From: Phorcus lineatus
Lineage: Eukaryota; Mollusca; Gastropoda; Trochida; Trochidae
DNA length: 64,000 nt
NCBI GenBank assembly: GCA_921293015.1
Contig: OV121096.1
Coordinates: 25,555,729 to 25,619,728, forward strand
Reading direction: 5' to 3'
Position 1 is the first letter of the stretch. Each line of letters opens with the position of its first letter. The notes under the pieces are model-generated. The model had not been told where the DNA came from. It made no database searches and saw nothing but the letters and a program-made list of their open reading frames with translations. Both the position numbers and the translations under genes were made by a program. Positions 758 to 45,818 of the stretch are shown here, piece after piece.

Positions 758-3700
758 TCAAGTTGGTTGATTATGCTCTGGAGGTGCGCTGGGCTTGACC
801 TGCCTTGACCTTTGAGGATGACCTTCACCTTCTGAGTATAATGGCCTTGACCCTTCATTCAGAAGAGGGGTCCTTTCATCGCCGACAGGGGATCTTTGAG
901 CATGTTCCAGTCGTTTCATTTTTTTCAAGTGTGCAGGACATGCTGGGAAAGGCGCTTTCTTCCTTTCTCTCCAGAACTGGAACACTGACCCCAGGATGAA
1001 CAGCACTCCCCACACTACGGTGAGAATGATTTCTGAAAGGGAGGAAATCCTTGAAGGAATGATAATTGGGGTAATTGATACTGCTATCAAAGGCAGGAAG
1101 TTTTAGTTCTCACTGGCAAGCTGGGCTTATAGTTTGAAAAACCAACCAGCCTTTCTCAGTACTGGCAAGCCCTGCCATGTAGAGCCATCTTGTTGGGCTG
1201 AGTATTGCACCAAATTTTGTATTGCAATATATTGTGATATACAGCTCATGTATTGCATCAATATTGAATTGAGAATCATTTATTTGATATACAGTTAAAG
1301 CACTTGAGCCTTCTCACAATGATGTTAGCGCAACCAAACAAAAGTATGCTATTTTTATAGTTTGTGGCGTAGAATGTAAGGACGGAGGGATAGGGGGCCG
1401 ATGAGTAAATCAATTATCCCTTAATTGCTTCATTAAATTTTCATACTAAAGGAATAATCTAGTACCTTTTTCACCGTAGGGGAAGATGACGATAGCATCG
1501 ATGTAGCCAGTGACCGACTGCTTGTAAACAGAGTTGAGGAAGATGAATTTAATTCCGCTCCACAGGTAGATATCGACACAAACAACACACAGGTAGGAGC
1601 CCACGAATGTACACGACAAGATGTTCAGCTGTGAATAGACAAACAGAACAAGGCAGCATTTAGTATTATGTAGTATCATGTAGCATCATGTAGTATTATG
1701 TAGTATCATGTAGCATCATTTGTATCATGCAGTATTATGTAGTATCATGTAATATCATTTTGTATCATGTAGCATCATGTAGTATCATGTAGTATCATGA
1801 AGTATCATATAGCATCATGTAGTATCATGTAGGACCATGTTGTATCATTTAGCATCATGTAGTATCATGTAATATCATGTAGTATCATGTAGGACCATGT
1901 AGTATCATGTAGGATCATGTAGTATCATGTAGGACCATGTAGCATCATGTATCATGTTGTATCATTTAGTATCATGTATCATCATGTACTATCATGTAGG
2001 ACCATGTAGCATCATGTAGTATCATGTAGCATCATGTAGTATCATGTAGGATAATGTATCATGTAGCATCATGTTGTATCATATAGTATCATGTAGTATC
2101 ATGTAGCATCATGTTGTATCATGTTGTATCATGTAGTATCATGTAGTATCATGTAGCATCATGTAGTATCATGTAGCATCATGAAGTATCACGTAGTATC
2201 ATGTAGGACCAGTTAGTATCATGTTATACCATGTAGCATCATGTAGTCTCATGTAGCATCATCTAGTATCATGTAGCATCATGTAGCATCATGAAGCATC
2301 ATATAGTATCATGTAGGACCATGTAGTATCATGTAGGACCATGTAGTCTCACGTAGCATCATCTAGTATCATGTAGAACCATGTAGTATCACGTAGTATC
2401 ATGTAGCATCATTTGTATCATGTATGATCATTTAGTATCATGTAGTATCATTTAGTATCATGTAGTTTGTTCTGATGTATCATCAACATGTATATCATTG
2501 CTTCTCTGACAGGCATTCTAGAAGCCAATGTGATTCAGGAGGACAAGTTCAATGGAAAGACAACTTCTTTATTCAGACATGAGAATGGATAAAACCCAAA
2601 AACAATGAAAATCTAGCAGGGGGTGTAGAGGGCCGCTCTAACATCGGTCTCAAAAACGTTAAAAATGAAAAACGAAATACTGCAAATCTGCGGAAAATTC
2701 TCATGTCTGTTTATTGCATTTATATATGCAAAATTTGGGTACAGGTACTAATTACGCCGTTATCAAGCAATTAATTACATTGAAGCAGGGAGAATATCAC
2801 ACTTTTATGTATATCATACCTGCCTCTATGTCATTTATCACTTACTTGATAGCCGTTTTAATACCTGCACCGAAAAGTGACATATAATGCAATATAGAAG
2901 TTGACAATCCATTGAACTTGTCCTCTTTCATGTTTAATACTGCACAATGTCAACTTTTTCGCCCGGAGACGTAACTTAAGTCATAAAATCCTACGCTACA
3001 TAATGTTTTAATTCAAGTTTTTACTAAAAAATTGTAAAAAATTATTAAGCCAAATCTTATAGGAAATTAAACTTTGAACGGATCATGAGAACTCAAAATG
3101 ACCTTGAATATCGTCCAAAAGATCCTTTCAATACAACTTGTTGTCTTTCTTGAGTTATACCAGTTTGTGAGTAATCGCGGTCCTAGTAAAACACAAGTGG
3201 ATTTTTTTAAATGACTACTCACGGTCCTATTAAAAGACAGAAGGAAGAAAGGAAGAATACTCACCGTCCTAGTAAAACACAGAAGGAAGACAGGAAGAAT
3301 ACTCACCGTCCTCGTAAAATACAGAAGGAAGAATACTCACCGTCCTAGTAAAACACAGAATGAAGACAAGATGAATACTCACCGTCCTAGTAAAACACAG
3401 AGGAAAGAAAGGAAGAATACTCACCGTCCTAGTAAAACACAGAAGGAAGACAGGAAGAATACTCACCGTCCCAGTAAAACACAGAAGGAAGACAGGAAGA
3501 ATACTCACCGTCCTAGTAAAACACAGAATGAAGACAAGATGAATACTCACCGTCCTAGTAAAACACAGAGGAAAGAAAGGAAGAATACTCACCGTCCTAG
3601 TAAAACACAGAAGGAAGACAGCAAGAATACTCACCATCCTAGTAAAACACAGAAGGAAGACAGGAAGAATACTCACCGTCCTAGTAAAACACAGAAGGAA

Positions 3701-6700
3701 GAAAGGAAGAATACTCACCGTCCTAGTCAAACACAGAGGAAGACAGGAAGAATACTCACCGTCCTAGTAAAACACAGAAGTAAGACAGGAAGAATACTCA
3801 CCGTCCTAGTAAAACACAGAAGTAAGACAGGAAGAATACTCACTGTCCTAGTAAAACACAGAAGGAAGACAGGCAGTATGAGTACACCACAGGTGAAGGT
3901 GAGGCCGTACGTCGTCATCGAGTCCCAGTAAGATATGTTACCTGCCATGAGACAGCAACATTTACATTTGATGTAAAGACATTTATGCCTAGACAAAAGT
4001 TTTATCTCATCTCATTCAGAAGAAACAAACACTTGCACAGTTGCGCCTACAGCATGAGCTCATCATTGCATGAGCATTCATAAAATATTTTAATTGGCCC
4101 GGATTCACAACACTTCTTATAAATAAAGTTTTCTGAAGCCAAATTAACTCTTAAATCAGCTAGAAATTCTTGCGGTGATGCAAGTGAAAAACCTATTAAG
4201 TTCTAAGAATCTAGGCCCTAAAGTAAACTTTTAAGTTTAGATGATAGGCGATACCACATATACTCAGCCATTGAGTACAATGACATGTTTCCATGATTGA
4301 ATAAGGATAAAATGTTGATATCAGCCTAAATTTATGTGGCTTTTACCCATGACCTACCCTTTGTTATCATGACCAACAGGACATACACAGCTAATTTCAT
4401 AGAAACTCAATATCTGGATAATAGTCATCTTACACTCACCAAATGGTGTATAGAAGAGTAGACTGGACACAAGATAGCCGGCGGTCAGCCCGACCAACAG
4501 CACCGAGATGACAGGTACCCCCCAGAAGTACCACAGGAGCAGGAAGGAAACCCCTCCCACCAGACCTAGCACCACACTCACTCCTATACAACCTGCAGAC
4601 ACAGAGAATAACTTGTAGATGAATTTGATGAAGTTTACTTTTGAAAAATCTAAGGGGTCGATAGGAACTTTTACCTTTTTCACCCCTAAAGGCCTGAACT
4701 CTGGCTCAAAACAGTAAAAGTTACCCAATTCTTAGGGGTTCAATTCAATATCATGTGTGTAGGGTCCCATCCTTCAATACTGGGCTAATTTAGGGAACAT
4801 TAAACTCACAAACAAGGCATCTGACATCACATTTCCAAGGTTGCAATGCTGTCTTTATTATGTTTGAGAAAAAGAATATAAAATGTTTCATGATTCAGGG
4901 GAGGCAATCAAGGAAAACCTTACAAAGACATTTTCCCGAAGCACAGAACTTACAGTCAAAGGACAGACTAGAGAACTGTGCTTGTTTTTAGTTGAGATGA
5001 CAAGGTATCTCGTCCTTCATAAGGAAACACTGGAACCATGATGACATAATATCTCTATGACGTAATATCTCTATGACATAATGTCTCTATTACCATGTTC
5101 GTCTGAGGTTATATCTGCAAAAACAGCTTATGCTGTGCATCTATATACTCAGATTACATACCATAAGGTGTTTTTGTGGAGAGATTAAGTCCAGTGAGAA
5201 GTTTTCTCACATATCTCACTCCTGAGACTCCTCCAGAACTGCTTCATAAGTGAGACTTTGCACACTCAGGCTTGCTAGTACAGACGTCTCAGATTGGCAA
5301 TTGTGAGAAGGTGTTGCCAGGCAACCAAGTATATATAAAATATGCAGCCTAAGTTGCTATCAACTTAGGGAATATCTTCATTTGACATCAATCTCATTAA
5401 AACAACCACTGATTTGTTCCCTTGGCTTATTTTGAGTTGTCACTAATTGAGTGTGTCATCTAAGAGTCACATCTCAAAATGAGCTCGAGGAACAAGTCAA
5501 TGATGTGATTTCAATGAGATTGATCAGATATATTCCCTTGCAACTAACGAGGATGGAAAAGCAGATGCATCACATAAAAACTTACCTTCAACTGACAGGG
5601 AAGTAGCTCTCTGCATTAGAATGAAGAATACAACACTTAAGGCAAGGAATCCAAACATGAAGAAACCTGAATATAAAAGAAAGAAAAAATAGGTTGTAGA
5701 ATACAATTTGGCCTTTTCACAGGAGTCACAACTCATTTAGAATTAAGTAATCAGGGACAAATCCAAAAGTCACTGGCTCTGTAGCTCATCAGGTTATATA
5801 TAATTTATTTCAGATGTTCATCCTATGAGCTGCAACAGGATCACCAAATCTATTTATCATACTCATCATCAGCTCAGGACTCTGTACACAAGATCTAAAG
5901 AAAATGAAAATAGGTTTACAGGGAGTGGCCCCTGTGGCACTTATCAGGGGTCACAGGATCAACAAATCTACATTTTAGAATACACATCAGCTAAGGAGTG
6001 TGTACAAAAGGAATCAGTTTTCTAGGTTTTCTTGATGAAAAGAGGTTTTAGAGTTGCCCGTATAAAGGGTCACTGGGACACTCAATCTATAGATTAGAAT
6101 CTCCATCAGCTAAGAAGTATGTTCACAAGGTTTTAGGCTTCTAGGCCTCTTTCTTCAAGAAGAGAAGATGAAAATAAGTTTTTTAAGCACCAAATCTATC
6201 AATAAGAATACACATCAGCTAAGGAGTTGTAAAAAAGCTTCAGCTTTCTAGGCCTCTTGCTTCTTGAGAAGAAGTTTAAAGTAGGTTTAAAGAGATAGCG
6301 CCAGATGAGCGAAAAAAGTTAAAAGTTTATGGACAATGGACAACAGACAAGGGGACTATTGAGGTTTGATGAGCTAAAAGGATGATATAGTAAAAAGGAT
6401 GGACAGACATGACTGACATAAGAACATCAGGCTTTTCAGGCCAGATGAGCTAAAAAATAAAAAAATAAAAATATCTCATAAACATAATGAATGTTTTTAA
6501 CTGCACAAAGATAAGATATAGATATAATGGAACCTGCAGTGGGAGGAATGAATTTTGAAAAACACAGCTTGGGTCATGAATTTTTGTTAACATACAGAGC
6601 CTGAGCTAACTTATAATTCAAGTTTTATTTTTATTCATTAAAATTATGGAATTCATTTTGAAAGAAAGAAACTCACCAGTTTTGAGGAATCGGTGGCCGA

Positions 6701-9700
6701 GAAAACAAAGAAATAATCCCAGAATGCCACACAGGGTGCTGACGATGACTTCAACCGCAGAAACTACAGACCAACAGAATAGAGTATCTAAACAATTATA
6801 CATAGATAACCAATATATCATTTCATGTTATTTTATCACTTTCAACTTCAAGTCTGTATCATTTAGCAAATGAAGGGCAAACAACCCCCATCTCAATGTA
6901 TATGCACAGCTGTGAGGCAATTTGCAAGGCAGGCTGTAGGCCTGACATCCAATACACTAGACCACACTTCACTAGATGAGCATGAAATACTCTTTTATAT
7001 GATGCATTAAACCAAAAGACAAATAAAATTTCCACTGATGCAGTTAAGAACCATTTCATCCTCATTACTTGATTATTCAAAATAGAATTTGGAGAATATA
7101 TCATTTGTTTTGATACTTGAAGAACATATATTTCTGACTTTTTCTAAAACATCAAGTGTTCCAAAATAGAGCCATTGACTCTGTAGCTTATAAGCCTTTG
7201 TATTGTTGATGTTAAAGACTAAGATATACCCGTAACTTTTGTACCGAGTGAAATGCATCAACAAAATTTCCATTGTCAGTGCATTTGACAAGATCTATAA
7301 ACATTAATCTTCATATAACAAAGATGTTATTTTGAAAATCTGAGCTTCCTACGCCAACAAGTTTTGGTTTTGGTAATTCAAAATAAATATGCACCCGTCA
7401 CGCCCCTGTTATTGCATTCTCTCCCCACAGAGGTAGCTCTGTCATAAATTCCTATGCAACCCCTATCTTAATGCGAAGGTTTCTTGTTCTAGATATAGAA
7501 CGCTGATTGAATGCAATCAAAGTTAGATGTGCAATCAGCGACGCCGTTTCAAAAGTTATCAATCACATCGCCTAAATTATTTCTGTAAGCTTTCCAAAAG
7601 CTAAACTATTCAAATATGCACCTTGCACTTTACAGAACACATACGCCTCATTTTGCGACTGCATCATTGCATAAGTCTATGTGACAACAAAACTGTTATT
7701 AATGCATACAGTGTTTTCATTGGCTGAAATATTGCCCAGTAGTTTAAGTTGCAACATTGCGCTGGTACGGGAAACTGATGGAAGCCCGAGAAGACCTTTG
7801 TATGAAGACAGAGGTTGTATAGGAATTTATGACGGAGCTACCTCTGTTGGGCGAGAACACTGTTATTGGGGGTAGAACAATTAAGTTTGCACATCTTAGT
7901 CTACATCCTACAAAGATGATAATTTTCATAATGAGAGAGTCCTAGCATTGATGGTTTCTTGAAAATAGAAGAAAGAAGATTTGAGGATGGACAATCATGT
8001 CCATATTTGAAGGTTGGGTCAACACCAAAGTTACAAATAAGAGTCTTCACATCCAAAAAATGTTACTCTTAAAATTTCCATCTCCAGTGTCAATTGGTTC
8101 TGGAGAACAAGTTTTTATAAGATTTTAGGGAAAATGCCTGCCACGCCCATAGTTGAAGGGAAGTCAGTCAATAAACTAGAAATTAGGTCAAGGTATATCC
8201 TCACAAAATTTCAGCTTGGGGGTGCAGCCAGACAACAGGCCAAGTCATAAGCCAATATGACCTTTCAGGTCTGATGAGCTAAAACGTAATACCTACTTTT
8301 GTAATCACAATCCTGATCTCCGAGAACACAAGAATAGGTCTGGACAGGAACGTAGGTTGCCATGGTGTTGTTAGTTGTATCCGTGACAACAATGGCGTAC
8401 ATGACCCCCTGACCTCTCTCTGCCGTTACGAGAGCGAGAGACTTGGTTGCGCCGCTATTAGTAACACTCGCAACCTGCCGATTGTCAATCAAAAAAACTG
8501 ATCAATAACTGGTAAGGGAAGCGCTACAATGCAGTTTTTTAAGAGACACTCTGTGATTTTCATCACACACTTTAATGGGAACCAAATGCCATATATGGTG
8601 ATATAAATTCAACACATCTTACATATTCATTCCAAAATGACAAATAAATGGAAATTGTTTTAAATTAAAATCTCAAATCAACCGAAGAAGCCAAACTTCT
8701 CACTTCCAATTTACAGTCCCTGGCAGCTTTAGCCTAGATAGGTTTTCCAAAATTATGTTTGACTAACTCACACACGTCATGGTCGGGTTTTCGATCATAA
8801 TCACATTTTTATAACTGCATTTTGTCATTATTCAAAACCGACAAGCTTCAAAATGACATTTTTCAGCAACAGTTTATTTATTTATCAAATGACAAAATTG
8901 ATAAAGTTTGGCATATATGTGTTATTTAAACAACTCACAGAGTATTTCTTTAAGTGCTGTATACATGGATTATTCAGCCAAAAGAGTTAAAAACTGACTG
9001 CTCAAGGTAGCCCCTCCACAGAATTAAATATAGATATTTTTTATACATTTAGTGCCAGTTTTAATCAAGTAAAAAGACTTTCTTTCACCAACTTGTTACT
9101 TTTTGTCATTAGTCCTGCTTCCTGCATACTAGCGACAGAATTTTTGTACAGGGTTTATACACATTTTTAGATTTACCTTTCTTCCTTTTTCTTTCACATC
9201 TTTTGCTTTCAACATCTTAGTCATGCCTTGCATGTATACTGTCTCAGTCTGGTCAGTGAAGTAGAAAGCATAGATGTCATATCGAAGGAGAGACTGGAAT
9301 TGTTGTATCTCACAATTCCTCGGACTCTCTCCGCGGTTCATCCCCAGATTTGCCCACTGAAACTCCACTTGGGTCCAATGATTATGGAAGGCAAGATGGA
9401 TGTTAGGGTCATTCTCGAGTTTAAAAATTTGGTTGCATGCTCCAGGGATTGGGTCTGAAAGGTAAGAAATATTGAATTAATAATTTCTATATTTAAGATT
9501 AATGATTTCTCAAAAAGCCAATCAGCTATGTTTTTCTTGCAATACCGCCAGACCCTAATGTTTCAGACCAATGTTACGCCGAACTTTTGCCCAGCCAATA
9601 GTTTTTACATATGACAAATACTAAATTTTAGTCCCCACATACAAAAAAAGGTTCTAAAAGTTTGAACTTCTTAGAGTAGGAGGTTAGTCCCATTTACTCC

Positions 9701-11090
9701 CTTTTTGAAGTTTTAATTTTTTTAATTTTCTTTGTAAGTGAAGCTTTAGATTTAAACAATAACTTTCAAACAAATTTCAAATATATACAAAATAACACAC
9801 TCACCATCTGAGCGATAGAATTCAGCCAAAACCACCACAATTATGGAACTATTTAGATCGGTTTTCAAATACAGAGATACGTCAGTCTGTGTTGGTTGCA
9901 GTAATGTAACAAATCCAACATGGCCGCCTTGGAGTGTCAAATCTTCATCAAAAGATGCAGAGGAGGAAACAGATACATTGTAGCGATGTGTGTGGGCCTG
10001 GAATGTGAGATGGCTATAAGCAGACGAGATGTTTTGGACCAAAAAAGTCGATTGTCCATAGCTAGGGATGATGAATCCTGTCGCTACACCTGGTTCGAGG
10101 GTAACAAATTCACCTGAAATAAAAACATTCTTTATTACCAACCTTTCAATATAGTTTCTTTACCTCTTTGACTCTGTTTTCTTCAAAATAATGTATTTAT
10201 TTAAATTATCTTCCCAGTCTCATCAACAATGTCTTTTAAAGGCTTTTCACTTTTCACTTCCATTTTATTTTACCAAGCGTGCCCTCTCGTTCAGCTAGTT
10301 GTAAAATCTAAATTAACCGTACAGTTAATTATCCTCAGTAACAGGTCTCAACTGGGTTATGTTATAATCATGTACTAATAACATACTTGTATAAATGGGA
10401 ATGTCCCTTGAATTTCAATTCCACAAAATATACCCCAATGGGACTGTCCTCTTAATTAAGCTTTATAACAGGGAAGAAAATGTTCGTCGATATCAATGAA
10501 TTTAAAAATAATGCATTTTTGCTGAATAACTTCATTATTAAAAATTAAGAAATAACTAATAGATTGACAGAAGAGGGGCATATTTACGAATAATTCATAA
10601 TAAAAGTTAAAACAAAGTTTTTCTTTTTTGATCGATACACTTTATTCTTTGTCAAATTGTTAAATCTTGAACAACTGAAATGTTAAACTCATGTAAATAT
10701 TTTAAATTAAGTGTGAAAAGAATCATGTATAAATCATATATATATTTGTTAACTGGAAAGTCCTCCTGAATTTCGTTTCCACAAAAAATACCCCGCTCGA
10801 ATGGTCCCTTTAAAATGTGAACCTCACATCCTGTAAAAAGAAAATTCCAAAACAAAATGCAAATATTGTTTCAGAAAATATAACAAACTTTCAAAGTTCT
10901 TCGTTTCGATCCAGAAACATCTCTGATTAGCGATTAGGAAGTTAATCATGATTATCATGCATGCAGATAAATTCAGATTTTTACACTGTCTCCATTCACC
11001 ATGTTTAGATATACCTGTTACAATCCTCGCAAAGAGGCTTAAAGTCCAAAGTGCACCAATTGACCTTGCCAAATACGCATTTATGGTCAT
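758..11090 (-). CDS. TM7SF3: TM7SF3, seven-transmembrane superfamily member 3 (complete, 10 exons)
   Basis: Coding exons in transcript order: 11015-11090, 9805-10113, 9177-9454, 8297-8474, 6677-6763, 5586-5666, 4440-4592, 3844-3941, 1466-1628, 758-1032. All junction phases agree, giving 565 aa against about 570 in human. Exon 1 encodes a signal peptide (MTINAYLARSIGALWTLSL). A lumenal or extracellular region follows to about residue 280, with family motifs DPIPGACN and TYVPVQTYSC and N-glycosylation sequons (QNIS, YNVS, LNSS, NNTM). Seven hydrophobic segments lie near 283-305, 310-328, 338-360, 361-385, 397-417, 421-443 and 475-495, including CFLGHRFLKT and SSLLFYTPFG. The tail ends near DERTPLLN, like the human ERTPLLL dileucine-type signal. 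The human protein is linked to p53-dependent stress survival; the molecular role is poorly known. Exon 8 ends in a tandem array that multiplies its splice donor. The 1466 boundary is a choice: an alternative donor seven codon-positions upstream (TACG|GTGAAA) also keeps frame. Confidence 0.95.
1655..2465. repeat. Decamer minisatellite (about 80 units) in TM7SF3 intron 8
   Basis: The unit is about 10 bp, mostly TAGTATCATG alternating with TAGCATCATG, TAGGACCATG and a few shortened or mutated copies. It fills almost all of the 5' part of the intron upstream of exon 1466-1628, in the direction of transcription, and stops about 30 bp from that exon's acceptor. On the transcribed strand each unit reads ATGATACTAC or ATGATGCTAC. 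Confidence 0.95.
2466..3179. other. Unique-looking part of TM7SF3 intron 8
   Basis: This part of the intron lies between the decamer array and the 42-bp array. It is AT-rich and I see no coding exon, RNA gene or recognisable mobile element in it. Confidence 0.5.
3180..3844 (-). repeat. 42-bp minisatellite built from the exon 8 end and its splice donor
   Basis: Sixteen units follow one another, mostly exactly 42 bp, with one 34-bp and one 41-bp unit and a degenerate distal unit. They continue without a break into the 3' end of coding exon 3844-3941, whose last 28 or so bases are the seventeenth copy. On the transcribed strand almost every unit contains AGGAC(G/A)GTGAGTATT, a strong 5' splice site. 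Units starting at 3342 and 3510 and the two units after each form a 168-bp higher-order repeat. Read on the minus strand the unit encodes 14 residues, VSILPVLLLCFTRT. The frame stays open for two extra units past the exon, then the 41-bp unit shifts it to a stop at 3727. Confidence 0.95.
5039..5093. repeat. Short tandem repeat, about 17 bp x 3
   Basis: Three copies of ATGACATAATATCTCT with single-base differences (TGACGTAATATCTCT, TGACATAATGTCTCT) lie in the TM7SF3 intron upstream of exon 4440-4592. Confidence 0.8.
5385..5527. repeat. Small inverted repeat
   Basis: CATCAATCTCATTAAAA at the left is matched by TTTCAATGAGATTGAT at the right, and GATTTGTTCC by GGAACAAGTC further in. It is a possible foldback MITE relic in a TM7SF3 intron. 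Confidence 0.5.
5825..6275. repeat. Degenerate tandem repeat, about 110-130 bp x 4
   Basis: Four diverged copies share the words CAAATCTA..., AGAATACACATCAGCTAAGGAGT and TTTCTAGGCCTCTTGCTTCTT. They lie in the TM7SF3 intron before exon 5586-5666. A 60-codon open frame over part of it is an accident of the repeat. Confidence 0.7.
6297..6460. repeat. Dispersed repeat ending in CAGRYCAGATGAGCTAAAA-like words
   Basis: The end TTTTCAGGCCAGATGAGCTAAAA at 6434-6456 recurs as TTTCAGGTCTGATGAGCTAAAA at about 8263-8284, and TGATGAGCTAAAAGG occurs again at about 6367. These look like ends of one dispersed repeat family in TM7SF3 introns. Confidence 0.5.
7400..7885. mobile_element. Foldback MITE with long inverted arms
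   Basis: The left arm at about 7402-7475 (CACAGAGGTAGCTCTGTCAT and beyond) is the reverse complement of the right arm at about 7800-7880 (ATGACGGAGCTACCTCTGTT). The match runs more than 60 bp with few mismatches. The central 330 bp is not repeated and has no convincing transposase. It sits in the TM7SF3 intron between exons 8297-8474 and 6677-6763. Confidence 0.75.
8570..8960. repeat. Dispersed repeat, copy 1
   Basis: It aligns with 36670-37085: GATATAAATTCA..ACATCTTA, TGGC(A/G)GCTTTAG, GTCCGGTTTTCGATCA-like, TTTGGCATAT.TGTG and ACTCAC(A/G)GAGT occur in the same order. A partial third copy is near 35085-35300. No protein is encoded. Confidence 0.7.
10330..10465. repeat. Dispersed repeat shared with 48455-48590
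   Basis: CCTCAGTAACA.GT.TCAACTGGGTTATGTTATAATCAT...CTAATAACATAC, then GGAATGTCCC and CAATTCCACAAA, recur in order at 48455-48590. A shorter diverged piece lies at 10735-10830. It lies in the first intron of TM7SF3. Confidence 0.75.
10735..10830. repeat. Partial copy of the 10330/48455 repeat
   Basis: AACTGGAAAGTCCTCCTGAATTTCGTTTCCACAAA followed by a GGTCC(C/T)TTTAAA word matches the distal half of the family. It creates an open frame on the minus strand (GIFCGNEIQEDFPVNK) with an acceptor-like upstream sequence. The same pattern recurs in the other repeat copies, so I do not call it an exon. Confidence 0.6.
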
Positions 11091-11894: not shown

Positions 11895-13010
11895 AAGAAG
11901 TGAGCACAGCTCACATACCCCCGCTTCAAACTATAGACTGGCTTTCTTTGTTGGTCTTACCCTCAAAAAGCTCACTTAGGGATCATGGTTGATAAGTGTA
12001 TTAAGTTTGTTGAAGCTAGCATGTATAGTTTAGGAGATATGCTCAGGAAAAAGCACTTTGTCAGATAGTCATTGTTTTAGTAACGTTTCCATGTAAACCG
12101 CAAAAAATAAACATAATTTTTTGGTCTTACCCTCAAGAGGCGCACGATTGGATCATGGCTGATAAGTGTGTGAAGTTTGGTGAAGATAGCATGTACGGTT
12201 TAGAAGATATACTCTGGACAAACGACTTAGTCATAAATTCACTGTTTTAGTCATGTTTCCATGGAAACCGCAAAAAAAATAATAATCATTTGTTGGTCTA
12301 ACCCTCAAAAGGCACATCTAGGGATCATGGTTGATAAGTGTATGAAGTTTGATGGAGATAGCATGTATAGTTATGAAGATATACTCCGTACAAAGGACTT
12401 TGTCACTGTTTAAGTCATGTTTCCATGGAAACCGCAAAAAATAAAAATCATTTGTTGGTCTAACCCTCAAAAGGCACATCTAGGGATCATGGTTTATAAG
12501 TGTATGAAGTTTGATGGAGATAGCATGTATAGTTTAGGAGATATGCTCCGGACAAAGGACTTGGTCATAGAGTCACTGTTTTAGTCATGTTTCCATGGAA
12601 ACCGCAAAAAATAAAAATCATTTGTTGGTCTAACCCTCAAAAGGCACATCTAGGGACCATGGTTAATAAGTGTATGAAGTTTGGTGAAGCTAGCATGTAT
12701 AGTTTAGGAGATATGCTCCGGACAAAGGACTTGGTCATAGAGTCACTGTTTTAGTCATGTTTCCATGGAAACCGCAAAAAATAAAAATCATTTGTTGGTC
12801 TAACCCTCAAAAGGCACATCTAGGGATCATGGTTTATTAGTGTATGAAGTTTGATGAAGATAGCATGTATAGTTTAGGAGAAATGCTCCGGACAAAGGAC
12901 TTGGTCATAGTCACTGGACAAAGATTTGTGACGGACGGACAGACGGACGGACGGACAGAATGAACGCTATATACCCCCGCTGACGCTGTAAGGCGGGGGT
13001 ATAATAAAGG
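11895..13010. mobile_element. Tandem-core element resembling molluscan 'pearl' / Helitron-like non-autonomous elements
   Basis: Six copies of a 160-173 bp unit starting TTTGTTGGTCTAACCCTCAA lie at about 11945, 12117, 12290, 12451, 12619 and 12787. They are flanked by ATACCCCCGCT at about 11917 and by ATACCCCCGCTGACGC...GGCGGGGGTAT near 12970-13003, preceded by a (GACG)n-type run. The last four units are the most alike. Four units contain the perfect palindrome GTTTCCATGGAAAC. A tandem core of about 160 bp with short conserved flanks is known from bivalve pearl (CvA-type) elements; the family assignment is inference. Confidence 0.75.
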
Positions 13011-31128: not shown

Positions 31129-32345
31129 TAATGCATACAGATAAACGGTCGGAACGAGCTTTTTTGGATGTGGACCACAATTATTGGAGCGCACCATGTC
31201 TATTGGTCGATCCAACATTTCAGTCAACTCAACCTCCACTTGTGAGTACCTGGCTCGTATCTAAAATATCCCGTCAATGTGTGTCGCTTACGCAGCATCA
31301 CTCCTTCAGCCTCGGACTTGAAATGGAAACGTTGTCATCCCTTCCGGACAAGACGCCGGTATAACTTTGAACACTATCACTTTATCTTCAAGAACACAAA
31401 GTCATTCAGTGCCAGTAAGCTACAGGAGAAATACCTAACACATTTTCAACAGGATATTTCACAGTTTCACTACAGGTGACTTGACTTGAAATTCCAGGAT
31501 CGTAAATGACTTAACAAAGCAGGCTGCCAAGCTGAACCCCCTTGCGTTCAGGAATGGAATGGACCTTGCACACGCTCCAGGTGCAACTTTTATGGAGGTG
31601 AACTGAATGTGTGAATATTTAACCTTGGACAAAAACTATATTTTGACTCTTCCAGTGCTAATGGAATAATGGATCAATCTGATATAACTATTGCTCTGCT
31701 CATACTGGACCAGCATTGATGTTGGCTGCCCACCATGACAGCTTCCATGGTTTAGCTGATGGTTGACTGGTTACCATGGCAACGCTAACTCTTTGCTGGT
31801 CACCATGGAGGTGCTGGCTGTTGGAATGTCCCCATGGTTTCCTTGACTCTTGGCGTCACCATGGTTATGATGCCTGCTGGTGACCATGGTTACAGTGAGG
31901 GTTGACTCATGTTGAGTGACAGTTCCCTTGTCACCATTGTGAGTTACATTTTGCTCGTAACCATGGTTATGCTGACAGTTCCCTTGTCACCATGGTTAAC
32001 TGACAGTTGGTTACCATGGTAATGCTGACAGTCACCATGGTTTTTTGCTGACGGTTGTGTCGCAGCTTGTGCATTTATCTGTTTCAAATCTCATTTAACA
32101 AAATAAAACAAAAGCATTTTCACAGATAGACTGTATACGTTCAGATTTGTTTTTCAGCTGACCAGACTAGTTGAAACTGCTCCTGTTTTGTTGTTCAGTA
32201 AATTCTGTTGGACTTGATTTCAATACTATCTACACTTACTGACTGAGGAGCAATCCTTAGGGTACCCTCACAATTTAGTGCCGCTTCTCATTGTTCATTG
32301 CAGTTTTTAATGTGAAAATGGAATAAATGCCTCTTATTTTCAACA
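31129..32345 (+). other. NAP1L1 3'UTR
   Basis: This sequence follows the NAP1L1 stop codon without an obvious donor site and reaches an AATAAA polyadenylation signal at 32322-32327. Its open frames match nothing recognised. It includes the CCATGG-rich stretch described separately. Confidence 0.6.
31740..32055. repeat. Cluster of near-palindromic CCATGG motifs (RFX X-box-like) in the NAP1L1 3'UTR
   Basis: About a dozen CCATGG cores occur in 300 bp, most inside arms such as GTTACCATGGCAAC (31770-31783), GTCACCATGGTTAT, GTGACCATGGTTAC, GTAACCATGGTTAT and GTTACCATGGTAAT. Many are separated by TGCTGACAGT-like spacers, which suggests a degenerate tandem repeat of about 30 bp. The motifs match the RFX X-box shape GTNRCC..RGYAAC. 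Function is unproven. Confidence 0.8.
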
Positions 32346-42100: not shown

Positions 42101-44132
42101 TTGTTTTTGTTTGCCAGTCTTTCATTCCATTTTCATTACATAAAGAGGTATTTGGTATGAAAAATAATAACTTAACTTGATCAATTATCCTCAAACATTT
42201 TCTTGAAAATGTTTATTCAATGACATGATTTGAAGCTTCAAATGCATCATTATTGGCATTTAATGTATATAACATATTATTTTCTTTTTCAGGATGAAAT
42301 AGTGTGTACGGCTTATATTGGTGCTCTGTATTTGAAAAACAGTAATTTCTCTGGCAAGGTGTATCTTGTAGGCAACCCTGCTATGGCAGCTGAGTTGGAT
42401 AAAGTTGGCATCAAACATACTGGAGTCGGAGTGAGTAGACGTGTGAAAAAACCCAATTAATTCCATAACTCCTTAGAATTTTTTGGAAATGTAGAACAGA
42501 GAACTTATTTCATTTCTGGTTAAATCTTGTGTATTTAATATTCTGTTTAAGTAGAAATTAAGTATATTTCCTCATGTATATGCTACTATGGGATACAATG
42601 CAAAACATCCTGTGTATCATCATACTCCGCTATTGACTTTTAAAAGACTTATGTAAATTCGTTCGATACCATCTCTCTCCCGTGCATTTAATCTTACTTG
42701 TTTTTGTAGAAAAGATATCACACTCTTGCTCTTGTGATAATCCATTTGTAATGTCTGATAAATGTGGTTTCTTTGTGTTCAGCTGATTCATTTGTGTGTT
42801 ACTCAGGAATGGTATGAGTTTAATTTGATTAGGTATGCACATTGATTTCTTGATTTGATTTATTCATAAAAAATCAAATGACTTTGACATAAATGGTGTG
42901 TTCACAGCCAGACCAAGAGAACATTGATGGCTTTGTGCCTGATTGGCTTCAACAAACATTAGACCCTGAGGTTGGTTCAAGCTCATCATGTTTTTTAACT
43001 CGATATTCAATTGAATTCTGATAGATTTTGTTGTTTCTTATTATCCACATATATAATTACATTGTCCATGTTGTGCGAAAAATCTTAAATTCAAAGTTCT
43101 AATTCAAATTCATTACCCTTTCACCTTTATCAATACAGACACAAATATGTTTAGGAGGCTAATTTTAGGTGAAATGATTATGGTCGCCTGTAAAGAAGCT
43201 GCTGAAAAGAGTTTCATTTAAAACAATAACAGAGGTTGACAACAATAATATGTTTTTGGCAATGAATGGCGTTCTTTAACTTTCTTTGCAGATAAATTGT
43301 GTAATGGTTGGGTTTGACAAGTATTTGAGTTATCCCAAGATTATCAAAGCATCAAGTTACCTGCAGAGAAAGGATTGTCTATTTCTTGGTACTAACGAGG
43401 ACACACACCTACCAGCCAGCGGAGATATAACAATACCAGGTGAGTTATTACAATACCAGGTGAGATATAATAATATCAGATGAGATATAACATTACCAGA
43501 ATATATATATATATATATATACACGAGCAGCATAGCCAGAAAACCGTTAGAAAAGGCATGCAACTGCAGACAAAAAGATAATTGCCCACTCAAAGGAAAC
43601 TGCTTAACGAGTGATGTAATTTACAAAGCTACTGTCTCCTCTCAAGCAGAAACAGTGTCATACATTGGTTTGGTTAGCGGCCCCTTCAAAAGCAGGTACA
43701 ACAACCATACAAAATCTTTCAGGAACGAAAAATATGAGAAAGAAACTGAACTGTCAAAATACATTTGGAAATTAAAGAGAAACAACACTAATTTCAAAAT
43801 TGACTGGCAAACTGTGAAGAAATCTAACACAAATAGACGAGACTCTGGCTTATGCAACCTGTGTTTAGAGGAGAAGCTCGAAATTCCCAGCTGCAGCAGT
43901 GACAACCTAAACAAAAGAACTGAACTCCTCTCAAGCTGTAGACATGGGAAGAAGCCAAGCCGGGCTAGAATCAAATAAGCTGACAATCTTCGTGTTGTAC
44001 ATTATGCCTGAAGATCGCCACCATGGTGTGCGTGAAACTCAGAGTAGCATGAAATAAAACTGTGTATTTACATATATGTATCTTTGCTCTACTTCACTGT
44101 ATTGAGCTCTCTGCATAGTGAAAGAATAACAC

Positions 44133-44216
<84 letters not shown>

Positions 44217-45818
44217 CAATACATGTTCCAGCGAGATATAACAATACATGGTAAGATATAACAATACCAGTTGAGAAATATCAATACCAAGTGAGATATA
44301 ACAATAAAAGGAGATATATGACAAAACCAGATCAGATATAACAACACCAGGCAAGAAATAGCTATACCTGATGAAATATATCAATACAATATGAGATATG
44401 ATAAAACCATATCAGGTATTACAATTCCAGGCAAGCAATACCGGTGAGATTAACAATACTAAGTGAGATATTATCATACTAGATGAGATATTAAAATACT
44501 AGGTCATATATAGGAATGCAAGATGAGATATGTCCATACCAGATTTTTTATTTATATTCAGGAGTTAAACTTTTTATTGGTTAGTATCTTAGAGGGGTGT
44601 GAATTATTTCTAATCATAGATTTGGACTAAAATATAAACTTTTTTCAACAAACATTTTTCTCACCTTTAAGAAATAATTCTCTTTGGAGGGAAACAAAAT
44701 TGAATATATTGCAAATGCCTAATCACAGATATAAGTTCTTGAAGACAATACAATATATTACTAAATAATCAGCATAGTACTTAATTAATACAAAGATTTC
44801 AGTTGATGAAACAAACATTCACCTATTTTTCCAGGAACAGGAACAATGGTTCACGCAGTTAAACTACCGAGTCGCAGAGAACCGACTATAGTGGGTAAAC
44901 CTGAGAAAACCATGTTTGAAGTTCTTCAGAAGGCCCACAATCTTGACCCGGCTAAGTGTTGCATGGTAGGAGATAGGTACGAATAAATTTACTTCATTCA
45001 ATTACAGAGGTCTTGTTAGAGGAATCTGCAAACACTTCTGTCATGATAATATTTGAGAATTAAATATTTCACAATTGCAAAGGATCCCATGTTTTGACTT
45101 ACAAAAATGGTTCTTCTTTGCCCTCTCAAAAGCGGTCAGCTTGGTCAAAATGTGTTTTTAGATCTAATATTAAATTTATTGAAGTTGAAAAAATATTAAT
45201 AACTGTCATGTGACATATCTTGAATGAATCAAGAAGTTTGAGCTATGTGAGATCAGGTTTGTACACAAACAAATTCTAGAAAAATGGAAAATATATGAAA
45301 CATTTATCTAATAAACATGATTGAATGATGAAATTATGAAAAAAAAGAAGGAAAAAAAATGAAATCAAAGCAGTACTGAGGAAATGTTTAGGGATGTTCG
45401 GGGGGCGGTTAAAGTAATAAAGAAAATATTTTGCCACAAAAAAAAAAAAAAAAAAAGGATTGAATGATGTATTTGAATATTTGATACTCGATTCTAGCAT
45501 AAAGAAATCCTGTTGACTGACATCAAAATTTTCCATTATCAATCAAATGTTTACATTTATGAATCAACAATACTATCCAAATATATAACAGGGATTTTGT
45601 TGTTATAATTCTCTTCCCATTCTTATTCTAGAATTAACACTGATATAGCCCTAGCGAAGGTCTGTGGTCTAAAGTCCCTGCTAGTACTGAGTGGAGTGAC
45701 CTCATTGGACATGGTCAAGGGAGATAACTCTGTCTTCAGACCAGAAGAGTTACCTGACTTGTACACTTCCTGTCTGGGAGATCTGGAGATGATGCTGCAG
45801 CAATTTAGTTCCAAATGA
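39143..45818 (+). CDS. PGP: PGP-like HAD phosphatase (phosphoglycolate / glycerol-3-phosphate phosphatase; complete, 8 exons)
   Basis: Coding exons: 39143-39221, 40221-40288, 40680-40772, 42293-42430, 42908-42970, 43292-43439, 44835-44976, 45632-45818. Phases agree throughout and give 305 aa (human PGP 321, PDXP 296). HAD motif I is FDCDGVLW with the nucleophile and acid/base aspartates, split between exons 1 and 2; motif II is ITNNS; motif III is the lysine of VGKP; motif IV is GDRINTDI. Between motifs II and III lies a C2-type cap ([36 protein letters not shown]). The product is expected to be a cytosolic Mg-dependent enzyme clearing 2-phosphoglycolate or glycerol 3-phosphate. PDXP (pyridoxal phosphatase) is the alternative; TAYIGALYL and the [10 protein letters not shown] stretch look closer to PGP. 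Exon 6 ends at the head of a 20-bp tandem array and intron 6 carries a Penelope-like fragment. An AATAAA at 46236-46241 may end the transcript. Confidence 0.92.
39630..40015. mobile_element. CAGGGCT-TIR MITE, copy D (right end missing)
   Basis: It starts CAGGGCTACAGATAAGATGC and follows the other copies through CATGTCTGATCTTTACATCTC and CCTCAATTTTTATTTTGAGGA, then leaves the family before the terminal TTATCTGGAGCCCTG. It sits in PGP intron 1 beside a small hairpin (about 39568-39615, AGTATCTCTTC / GAAGAGATACC). Confidence 0.75.
43420..43499 (+). repeat. 20-bp minisatellite from the PGP exon 6 end and donor, proximal part
   Basis: The last 20 bases of exon 6 (ending GATATAACAATACCAG) are followed, with exact 20-bp periodicity, by three more copies: GTGAGTTATTACAATACCAG, GTGAGATATAATAATATCAG and ATGAGATATAACATTACCAG. 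The real 5' splice site (CCAG|GTGAGT) is the boundary between the first two units. The array is then interrupted at about 43500 by a TA run and a retroelement. Confidence 0.92.
43500..43521. repeat. (TA)n run, left side of the Penelope-like insertion
   Basis: About eleven TA dinucleotides separate the proximal minisatellite from the retroelement fragment. Confidence 0.9.
43523..44137 (+). mobile_element. 5'-truncated Penelope-like retroelement with GIY-YIG endonuclease domain
   Basis: An open frame runs from about 43536 to a stop ending at 43978. It begins [11 protein letters not shown], continues [18 protein letters not shown], then has the GIY-YIG core [20 protein letters not shown], then [12 protein letters not shown], and ends with [11 protein letters not shown] and [13 protein letters not shown]. 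This order (Cys-rich linker, GIY-YIG nuclease, CNLC...E, LSSCRH) is typical of the C-terminus of endonuclease-bearing Penelope-like elements. The reverse transcriptase is missing, so the copy is dead on arrival. About 160 bp of 3'UTR follows. It lies in PGP intron 6, in the sense orientation. Confidence 0.85.
44139..44215. repeat. (TA)n microsatellite, right side of the Penelope-like insertion
   Basis: About 38 TA dinucleotides after a GTGTGT start. Open frames across it on the minus strand are repeats of YI residues and are not genes. Confidence 0.95.
44214..44545 (+). repeat. 20-bp minisatellite of the PGP exon 6 junction, distal part
   Basis: About 16 diverged units resume after the insertion, each close to 20 bp and built on GTGAGATATAACAATACCAG. 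Several keep a donor-like core, such as ATGGTAAGATATA and CCGGTGAGATTA. Divergence increases away from the insertion, and the array ends near CATACCAGATTTTTT. Confidence 0.85.
45439..45456. repeat. Poly-A run
   Basis: Eighteen A residues in the last PGP intron, possibly the tail of an unrecognised retroposed fragment. Confidence 0.7.

Follow-up and report, generated by a model that had tools for sequence, protein, structure and literature searches.

Why should an intron open with sixteen copies of its own 5′ splice site? The question arises at a TM7SF3-like gene of the snail Phorcus lineatus, which lies in the window, i.e. the whole stretch of 64,000 nucleotides analysed here (contig OV121096.1 of assembly GCA_921293015.1, positions 25,555,729 to 25,619,728; coordinates below count from its first letter). 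The end of exon 8 of this gene and the donor that follows it are repeated in tandem into intron 8, and the initial annotation of the locus had proposed that such an array might serve to generate isoforms or to buffer donor mutation. We consider it likely that the array is a tolerated exon-boundary minisatellite in which splicing uses the exon-proximal donor, perhaps with some leak to a form 14 residues longer. Donor arrays are not peculiar to the TM7SF3-like gene: they recur at other exons of the same genome, and a human precedent exists.

Anatomy and source of the exon-8 donor array

The features of the gene and of the array, all on the minus strand, are the following.

758 to 11090, minus strand: TM7SF3-like gene, coding part; 10 exons that join into one open frame of 565 amino acids
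11090-11015, 10113-9805, 9454-9177, 8474-8297 and 6763-6677, minus strand: exons 1-5
5666-5586, 4592-4440, 3941-3844, 1628-1466 and 1032-758, minus strand: exons 6-10
3844 to 3941, minus strand: exon 8, 98 nt, with the end GVLILPVFLLCFTRT; the repeat unit derives from the last ~29-33 bases
1629 to 3843, minus strand: intron 8, 2215 nt, 65% of it tandem repeat
3843, minus strand: first base of intron 8, where the exon-proximal donor reads ACA, then GTGAGTATT
3223 to 3843, minus strand: fifteen tandem units, each of which joins a donor GTGAGTATT to a copied exon end, following exon 8 without a gap
3719 to 3759, minus strand: third unit, 41 bp; frame shift, with a stop TGA at 3729-3727
3265 to 3592, minus strand: units 7-10 and 11-14; units 7 and 11, 8 and 12, and 10 and 14 are identical
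3179 to 3222, minus strand: decayed seventeenth copy without a donor; it ends GACC, then GCGATT
3183 to 3870, minus strand: seventeen acceptor-like stretches, one in exon 8 and 16 in the array

The name of the gene and the numbering of its exons, both given in the initial annotation, hold. The protein from exon 2 onward matches PF13886 (TM7S3/TM198; E 1.6e-29), and all 9 introns that separate the ten exons (the first of which was located by eye) have GT-AG borders and exceed 250 nt. The TM7SF3-like protein of Haliotis is 62% identical to the snail protein over the region searched; a transcript of the species itself was absent among the 23 homologues found, the best of which is 62% identical over the queried region. 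At E ≤ 0.001, the C-terminal 229 amino acids have their own locus as the sole match in the assembly, and the gene is apparently single-copy. Two further repeats were seen nearby. In intron 8, a second minisatellite (1657-2466, minus strand) consists of ~82 copies of a 10-bp unit, CATGTAGTAT on the plus strand, and stops 28 bases short of exon 9; a tandem array with a 170-bp (or 334-bp) unit occupies 11947-12910, ~0.9 kb upstream of the start codon.

The array itself is reported by Tandem Repeats Finder at 3216-3873, with period 42, 15.9 copies and 90% matches. On the minus strand it presents 16 donors, the last upstream base of which stands at 3844, 3802, 3760, 3719 and so on to 3223. All 16 read GTGAGT and 15 of them the longer GTGAGTATT, so that the ladder of near-identical donors described earlier is indeed there, as is the amplification of exon end plus donor. 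The three bases before the donor are ACG in 13 cases and ACA, ATG and ACC in one each. Thirteen units measure 42 bp, the third 41 bp and the thirteenth 34 bp; units 1 and 2 are identical to each other and both are open. When the last 42 bases of exon 8 are compared with the unit consensus, 35 agree, 29 of them in one run that stops one base short of the junction. Furthermore, since units 7, 8 and 10 are identical to units 11, 12 and 14, a block of four units has probably been duplicated within the array (identity at a lag of four units in 3 of 11 comparisons; P = 0.04 with unit order shuffled).

Each unit also carries a stretch that resembles an acceptor. These stretches contain 71-82% C or T, to be compared with 53-88% pyrimidines in eight real acceptors of the gene, and end in TAG in 15 of 17 cases (GAG in one, and GG, which is no acceptor, in another). 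Four bases separate this end from the donor or, in the final copy, from the remnant of one. One could therefore imagine that tract and donor act as pairs, either removing the intron stepwise or defining microexons of 4 nt (GACG), for which the pyrimidine content, the TAG ends and their constant distance from the donor would be the evidence. However, the exon end codes for Leu, Phe and Val, which makes a pyrimidine tract a by-product of the coding sequence. Neighbouring donor and acceptor are just 38 nt apart, the recreated junction has no GT at its edge, and inclusion of 4 nt would shift the frame. We find such nested splicing very hard to credit.

Where does the unit come from? The end of exon 8 aligns without insertion or gap in 23 of 23 homologues, molluscs, lancelet, lamp shell and frogs among them, with the consensus GxLIxPVxLLxFTRxLNILSC. 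The unit was also sought across the 957.8-Mb assembly (74 contigs) with up to 3 mismatches, only the best candidates being scored; all 12 matches lie within the exon-8 array, and the reversed unit, used as a control under the same limits, has none. The array is thus no product of chance. Given an exon end conserved across homologues and a unit unique to the locus, the comparison of sequences identifies the exon as the source and gives the direction of copying as exon to intron, as had been claimed. A transposon or dispersed satellite as the origin is ruled out by the same two results. This leaves next to nothing for the proposal that an ordinary intronic or transposon-borne satellite landed beside exon 8 and converted its end: it can appeal to donor-motif minisatellites, which are common in this genome and in some cases dispersed, but it is already contradicted by an exon-end peptide that is conserved across phyla and by a unit that is found nowhere else.

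Donor strength and the products of the sixteen donors

In simple pairing with U1, the exon-proximal donor forms a duplex of -7.6 kcal/mol, donors 2-15 reach -11.3 or -11.1 kcal/mol, and donor 16 gives -7.4 kcal/mol. The donor that belongs to exon 8 is thus weaker than 14 of its 15 copies, since the last exon base is A and most copies have G in that position. When donors 1, 2 and 3 are joined to the acceptor at 1628, proteins of 565, 579 (+14) and 593 (+28) amino acids result. The remaining 13 donors run into the TGA at 3729-3727, within the 41-bp unit, and stop after 458 amino acids. Both predictions of the initial annotation on this point, namely that the second and third donors keep the frame and that the 41-bp unit shifts it to a stop, are thereby confirmed; 2 of the 15 extra donors keep the protein whole.

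The 14 residues added through the donor at 3802 are VSILPVLLLCFTRT. They had been placed inside the fifth transmembrane helix, which calls for a small correction: the exon 8 junction falls at the boundary of the fifth and sixth hydrophobic segments (LLCFTRT before it, LNILSC after it), in a short turn. Hydropathy does not resolve the fifth segment from the sixth at this point, and in the predicted structure of the Haliotis homologue (mean predicted local distance difference test score, pLDDT, 80.2) the junction falls within a helical stretch (396-442), after residue 420 and before residue 421.

It is tempting to see a purpose in these products. The array would then be a functional isoform generator, in which donors 1-3 add 0, 1 or 2 hydrophobic 14-residue copies at the turn between transmembrane segments 5 and 6, while later donors switch the gene off via nonsense-mediated decay. 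The frames from the first three donors are all open and the 13 others all end early; donor 1 is the weakest of these three; and the first two units are open and identical. Nevertheless, none of the 23 homologues carries an insertion, and an addition of 14 residues within a predicted helical stretch is unlikely to be harmless. The unit lengths of twelve arrays, described below, show no bias to multiples of three. Nor do the donor bases clearly stand out by their invariance (P = 0.40 for the longest invariant run; P = 0.043 for the first nine sites, uncorrected for their choice), and selection on donors within the array was accordingly rejected as an explanation, site variability being not clearly beyond chance. 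We regard an isoform generator as unlikely. The earlier suggestion that the array serves that end or buffers donor mutation is not supported, in view of the small share of useful donors, the unit lengths, the homologues and the donor invariance.

A second functional reading takes the array as a splicing enhancer: a landing strip for U1, and for a protein that binds the pyrimidine tract, which would help to define exon 8 without the extra donors being cut. Exon 8 might need such help, having a weak donor (-7.6 against -11.3 kcal/mol) and an acceptor with 59% pyrimidines, the second lowest among the eight tested in the gene. In human PAH, U1 bound downstream of the donor promotes inclusion of exon 11, as the cited account has it (PMC5933811). 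On the other hand, the weak donor of exon 8 may simply be tolerated, and in eight other ladders of this genome, for which pairing was computed, the donor of the exon equals or beats the next copies, so that help is unneeded there. To us this role seems improbable.

We favour the tolerated minisatellite. It would have been born by the tandem duplication of a segment of ~42 bp that by chance included both the exon 8 end and the adjoining 5′ splice site, and unequal exchange or slippage, including the duplication of the four-unit block, would have enlarged and homogenised it. The array would be functionally intronic, exon 8 being recognised via exon definition, which selects whichever donor lies closest to the upstream acceptor; the main splice would then run from 3844 to 1628, with the other 15 donors largely silent. 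Exon definition is to be expected because exon 8 is short (98 nt), with an upstream intron of 498 nt and a downstream one of 2215 nt. Carranza et al. (2022, PMC9225289) report that human minigenes whose flanking introns measure 365 nt splice solely from the upstream one of two identical strong donors when these stand 52 nt apart. According to the passages cited from that work, the donor nearest across the exon is preferred where introns are long and the downstream donor where they are short. At exon 8 both flanking introns exceed the ~250 nt above which exon definition is expected to choose the upstream donor. Given the weaker U1 pairing of the first donor, one would expect a certain leak to 3802 (+14 residues) and a smaller one to 3760 (+28), and use of the later donors would lead to a premature stop. 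The array would persist as something nearly neutral and not as something used; it is probably a passenger. Alleles of different array length are plausible, and the internal block duplication suggests instability, in the one assembly seen.

Donor arrays at other exons

A search of the whole assembly for three GGTRAGT motifs at a spacing of 20-50 bases returned 3390 hits, compared with 2219 for the reversed motif. As an unchosen sample, all 13 arrays behind the hits listed (the first 20 Mb of contig C1) were judged at their true edges, and 4 of them begin at an exon or exon-like end (L040, L042, L044 and L048; interval 0.09-0.61). The longer motif AGGTRAGTAT gave a weaker contrast (60 hits, 41 for the mirror) and a listing of 11 arrays, one of which was already in the unchosen 13. 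Six more were examined and none proved clearly exon-anchored; the array at C15:15574841 has a frame of 70 amino acids without a significant match. A further ten arrays were selected by eye from the listings for AAGGTGAGT and CAGGTAAGT, the criterion being a unit that looked coding in seven cases and a pyrimidine tract preceding the donor in three (L088-L090). An exon-like end marks the start of 7 of the 10, the edge of L090 falling outside the sequence examined. Together with the TM7SF3-like array, 30 arrays were examined, of which 12 are exon-anchored and 6 have Pfam support. In the five other Pfam-supported cases the match lies above the curated cut-off and reaches to within 2 residues or less of the donor.

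L044: 27 donors; PF02441, E 9.8e-15; phosphopantothenoylcysteine decarboxylase in PDB to the last residue
L040: ~24 copies, first donor GTGAGC; PF03074, glutamate-cysteine ligase, E 1.6e-13 over all 35 residues; PDB match, E 0.005
L083: exon-like end, selected by eye; PF00209
L086: exon-like end, selected by eye; PF00082; furin and kexin in PDB
L088: exon-like end, selected by eye; PF03901; no PDB match at E 0.01
L042 and L048: unchosen sample; an acceptor followed by an open frame for which the databases gave no match
L082, L084, L085 and L087: selected by eye; frame and acceptor only, the frame of L082 read by eye and the peptide of L085 too short to scan

Among the Pfam-supported arrays we presume the finer identities to be SLC6-like, PIGB-like and GCLC. 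The peptides of L042, L048 and L087 match none of the solved structures. A likeness of L084 to palmitoyl-protein thioesterase 1 at E 0.19 is no proof of identity, and a match of L082 to designed pentatricopeptide repeats (E 2.8e-7) was disbelieved, no single stretch of it passing.

At these real or likely exons, arrays carry from about 4 to at least 46 near-identical donors each. Unit lengths in the 12 anchored arrays are 42, 38, 31, 34, 47, 50, 45, 39, 28, 42, 45 and 37 bp. They are multiples of three in 5 of 12 cases (P = 0.37), which shows no preference for frame; selection for reading frame across the arrays is unsupported, this number being at the level of chance. In eight other ladders for which pairing was computed, the donor of the exon is in no case weaker than the next copies. 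If such ladders are tolerated, it follows that the exon-proximal donor must usually win.

Several arrays of other kinds were seen as well. L089 (C12:21069200-21069750) and L090 (C13:801950-802480) have a 38-bp unit with a pyrimidine tract and CAG (or CCG) directly before GTAAGT, and resemble tandem recursive-splicing points. L037, L054 and L069 share a 48-bp minisatellite, with unit end GGTGACAG before GTGAGTATC and nearly identical flanks; its presence on three contigs (C1, C11 and C13) marks it as dispersed. L036 and L041, on contig C1, are two copies of a 38-bp array (GTGAGTGACAGT...) whose upstream 200 bases are nearly identical, and this array is probably carried by a mobile element. In the window, a 27-bp unit at 31908-32008 has a GGTGAGTGACAG core similar to the L036/L041 array, and 43422-43518 and 44233-44542 share a 20-bp unit, GAGATATAACAATACCAGGT, partly separated by a (TA)38 run.

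Is the excess of donor arrays more than chance birth would give? Hits, unlike arrays, are inflated by long arrays, and distinct arrays were therefore counted by eye from the places listed. For AAGGTGAGT there are 17 as against 8 for the mirror, all hits being listed; for CAGGTAAGT there are at least 15 among the 100 of 130 hits listed, as against 6 among all 22 mirror hits. Pooled, donor and mirror arrays stand at 32:14 (P = 0.006), or at 28:14 (P = 0.02) when look-alike donor arrays are merged and mirror arrays left unmerged. We compared these numbers with a model of random minisatellite birth without loss, for which exon spacing (2-6 kb) and donor shares were assumed. The ratios of motif to mirror that it yields are 1.3-1.8 for GGTRAGT (1.53 seen, in hits), 1.7-3.2 for CAGGTAAGT (at least 2.5 seen, in arrays) and 1.5-2.5 for AAGGTGAGT (2.1 seen, in arrays), and the expected share of exon-anchored GGTRAGT arrays is 0.21-0.45, the four in thirteen of the unchosen sample falling inside it. 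Such agreement says only that, under the model, chance birth and tolerance would suffice, with nothing more required. A birth mechanism specific to donors, such as U1 binding or R-loops at exon ends, was considered and found unneeded, since random birth gives numbers of the observed size. Acceptor-like arrays (TTTNCAGG three times) are also in excess, with 602 hits in the whole assembly compared with 234 for the reversed motif (2.6-fold), which likewise argues against a process specific to donors.

Several points weigh against the reading that we favour. (I) The exon-proximal donor of exon 8 pairs with U1 less strongly than its neighbour, by 3.7 kcal/mol; as strength can outweigh proximity, 3802 could be the main donor, and the splicing pattern that we favour is a prediction from sequence. 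(II) Arrays of the acceptor type, which may or may not begin real exons, are likewise in excess. (III) The donor shares and exon spacing of the model are assumed, and its comparison for GGTRAGT is in hits. (IV) Of the 11 further exon-anchored arrays, 6 have no Pfam match and were assigned from an acceptor with an open frame behind it.

On a broader reading we are evenly divided: donor ladders may form a whole class in this genome, seeded by minisatellites across the exon ends of dozens of genes or more, with several to tens of good donors beyond the real one in each and no visible purge for frame or stops, and at TM7SF3, whose copies surpass the original in strength, may perhaps yield a protein with 14 extra residues. 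If so, strong donors added just inside a long intron would be almost neutral. Minigenes in which two sites compete are the usual means of studying how a 5′ splice site is chosen. Recurrence at other exons turns what was a single curiosity into a replicated natural experiment, and the snail would then offer, ready-made, a test of how the spliceosome chooses among equal donors, with arrays at real or likely exons that vary in the length of their units, in strength and in the stops they contain. Gene annotators should treat with caution a repeat that looks exonic.

Comparison with known systems

The architecture of a minisatellite across an exon boundary is already known from human CBS; the donor arrays of the snail suggest that a single genome can hold repeated instances of this kind. 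No report of donor arrays as a genome-wide class was noticed in the literature searched, in which molluscs were not queried by name. The variable number of tandem repeats (VNTR) of CBS, with a unit of 31 bp, reportedly goes with lower enzyme activity, a finding attributed to Lievers and colleagues in 2001.

Other repeats at or near splice sites resemble the snail array less closely or not at all. Minisatellites with a mean unit of 30 bp at exon-intron boundaries of human duplicated genes can alter splicing (De Grassi and Ciccarelli 2009, PMC2812944). As the cited text describes them, those repeats have a mean of 4 copies and formed novel introns in duplicated genes, whereas in the snail the donor of an existing intron has been multiplied ~16 times in an apparently single-copy gene. 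Introns have also been gained by tandem duplication in fission yeasts, in a potato RNA-dependent RNA polymerase (RdRp) gene and in Drosophila (PMC3629103, PMC4974935, PMC2891723). The cited portions of these papers share with our case the tandem exonic copies with splice signals, which include arrays of a 24-nt repeat in two fission-yeast genes. There, however, AGGT- or AGGC-type sites give rise to a new intron; in the snail the intron exists, and its units have no AG directly before GT (or GC) but read TAG, four bases, GTGAGT, with AG and GT 4 nt apart. A minisatellite near alternative exons in C. elegans and the introns of earthworm metallothionein are, as far as their cited accounts go, different phenomena.

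CBS itself provides two comparisons. In the 844ins68 allele, a single 68-bp duplication of the intron 7-exon 8 junction, the splicing machinery strongly favours one copy (PMC2630376); by this account a duplicated splice junction adjoins the original, as in the snail, but does not form an array of donors. The 31-bp VNTR, at the boundary of exon 13 and intron 13, is named c.1444_1467+7 and has 16-21 copies (PMC2630376, PMC1395315). By that name its unit comprises the last 24 bases of the exon and the first 7 of the intron, the same architecture as that of the snail array, in which the unit is likewise exon end plus 5′ splice site in tandem and the first copy is the authentic exon end. The two differ, on the cited descriptions, in that each extra 31-bp unit would shift the frame, whereas the snail unit has 42 bp and its first two copies are open, and in that the human repeat is polymorphic in people, the snail array being known from one assembly.

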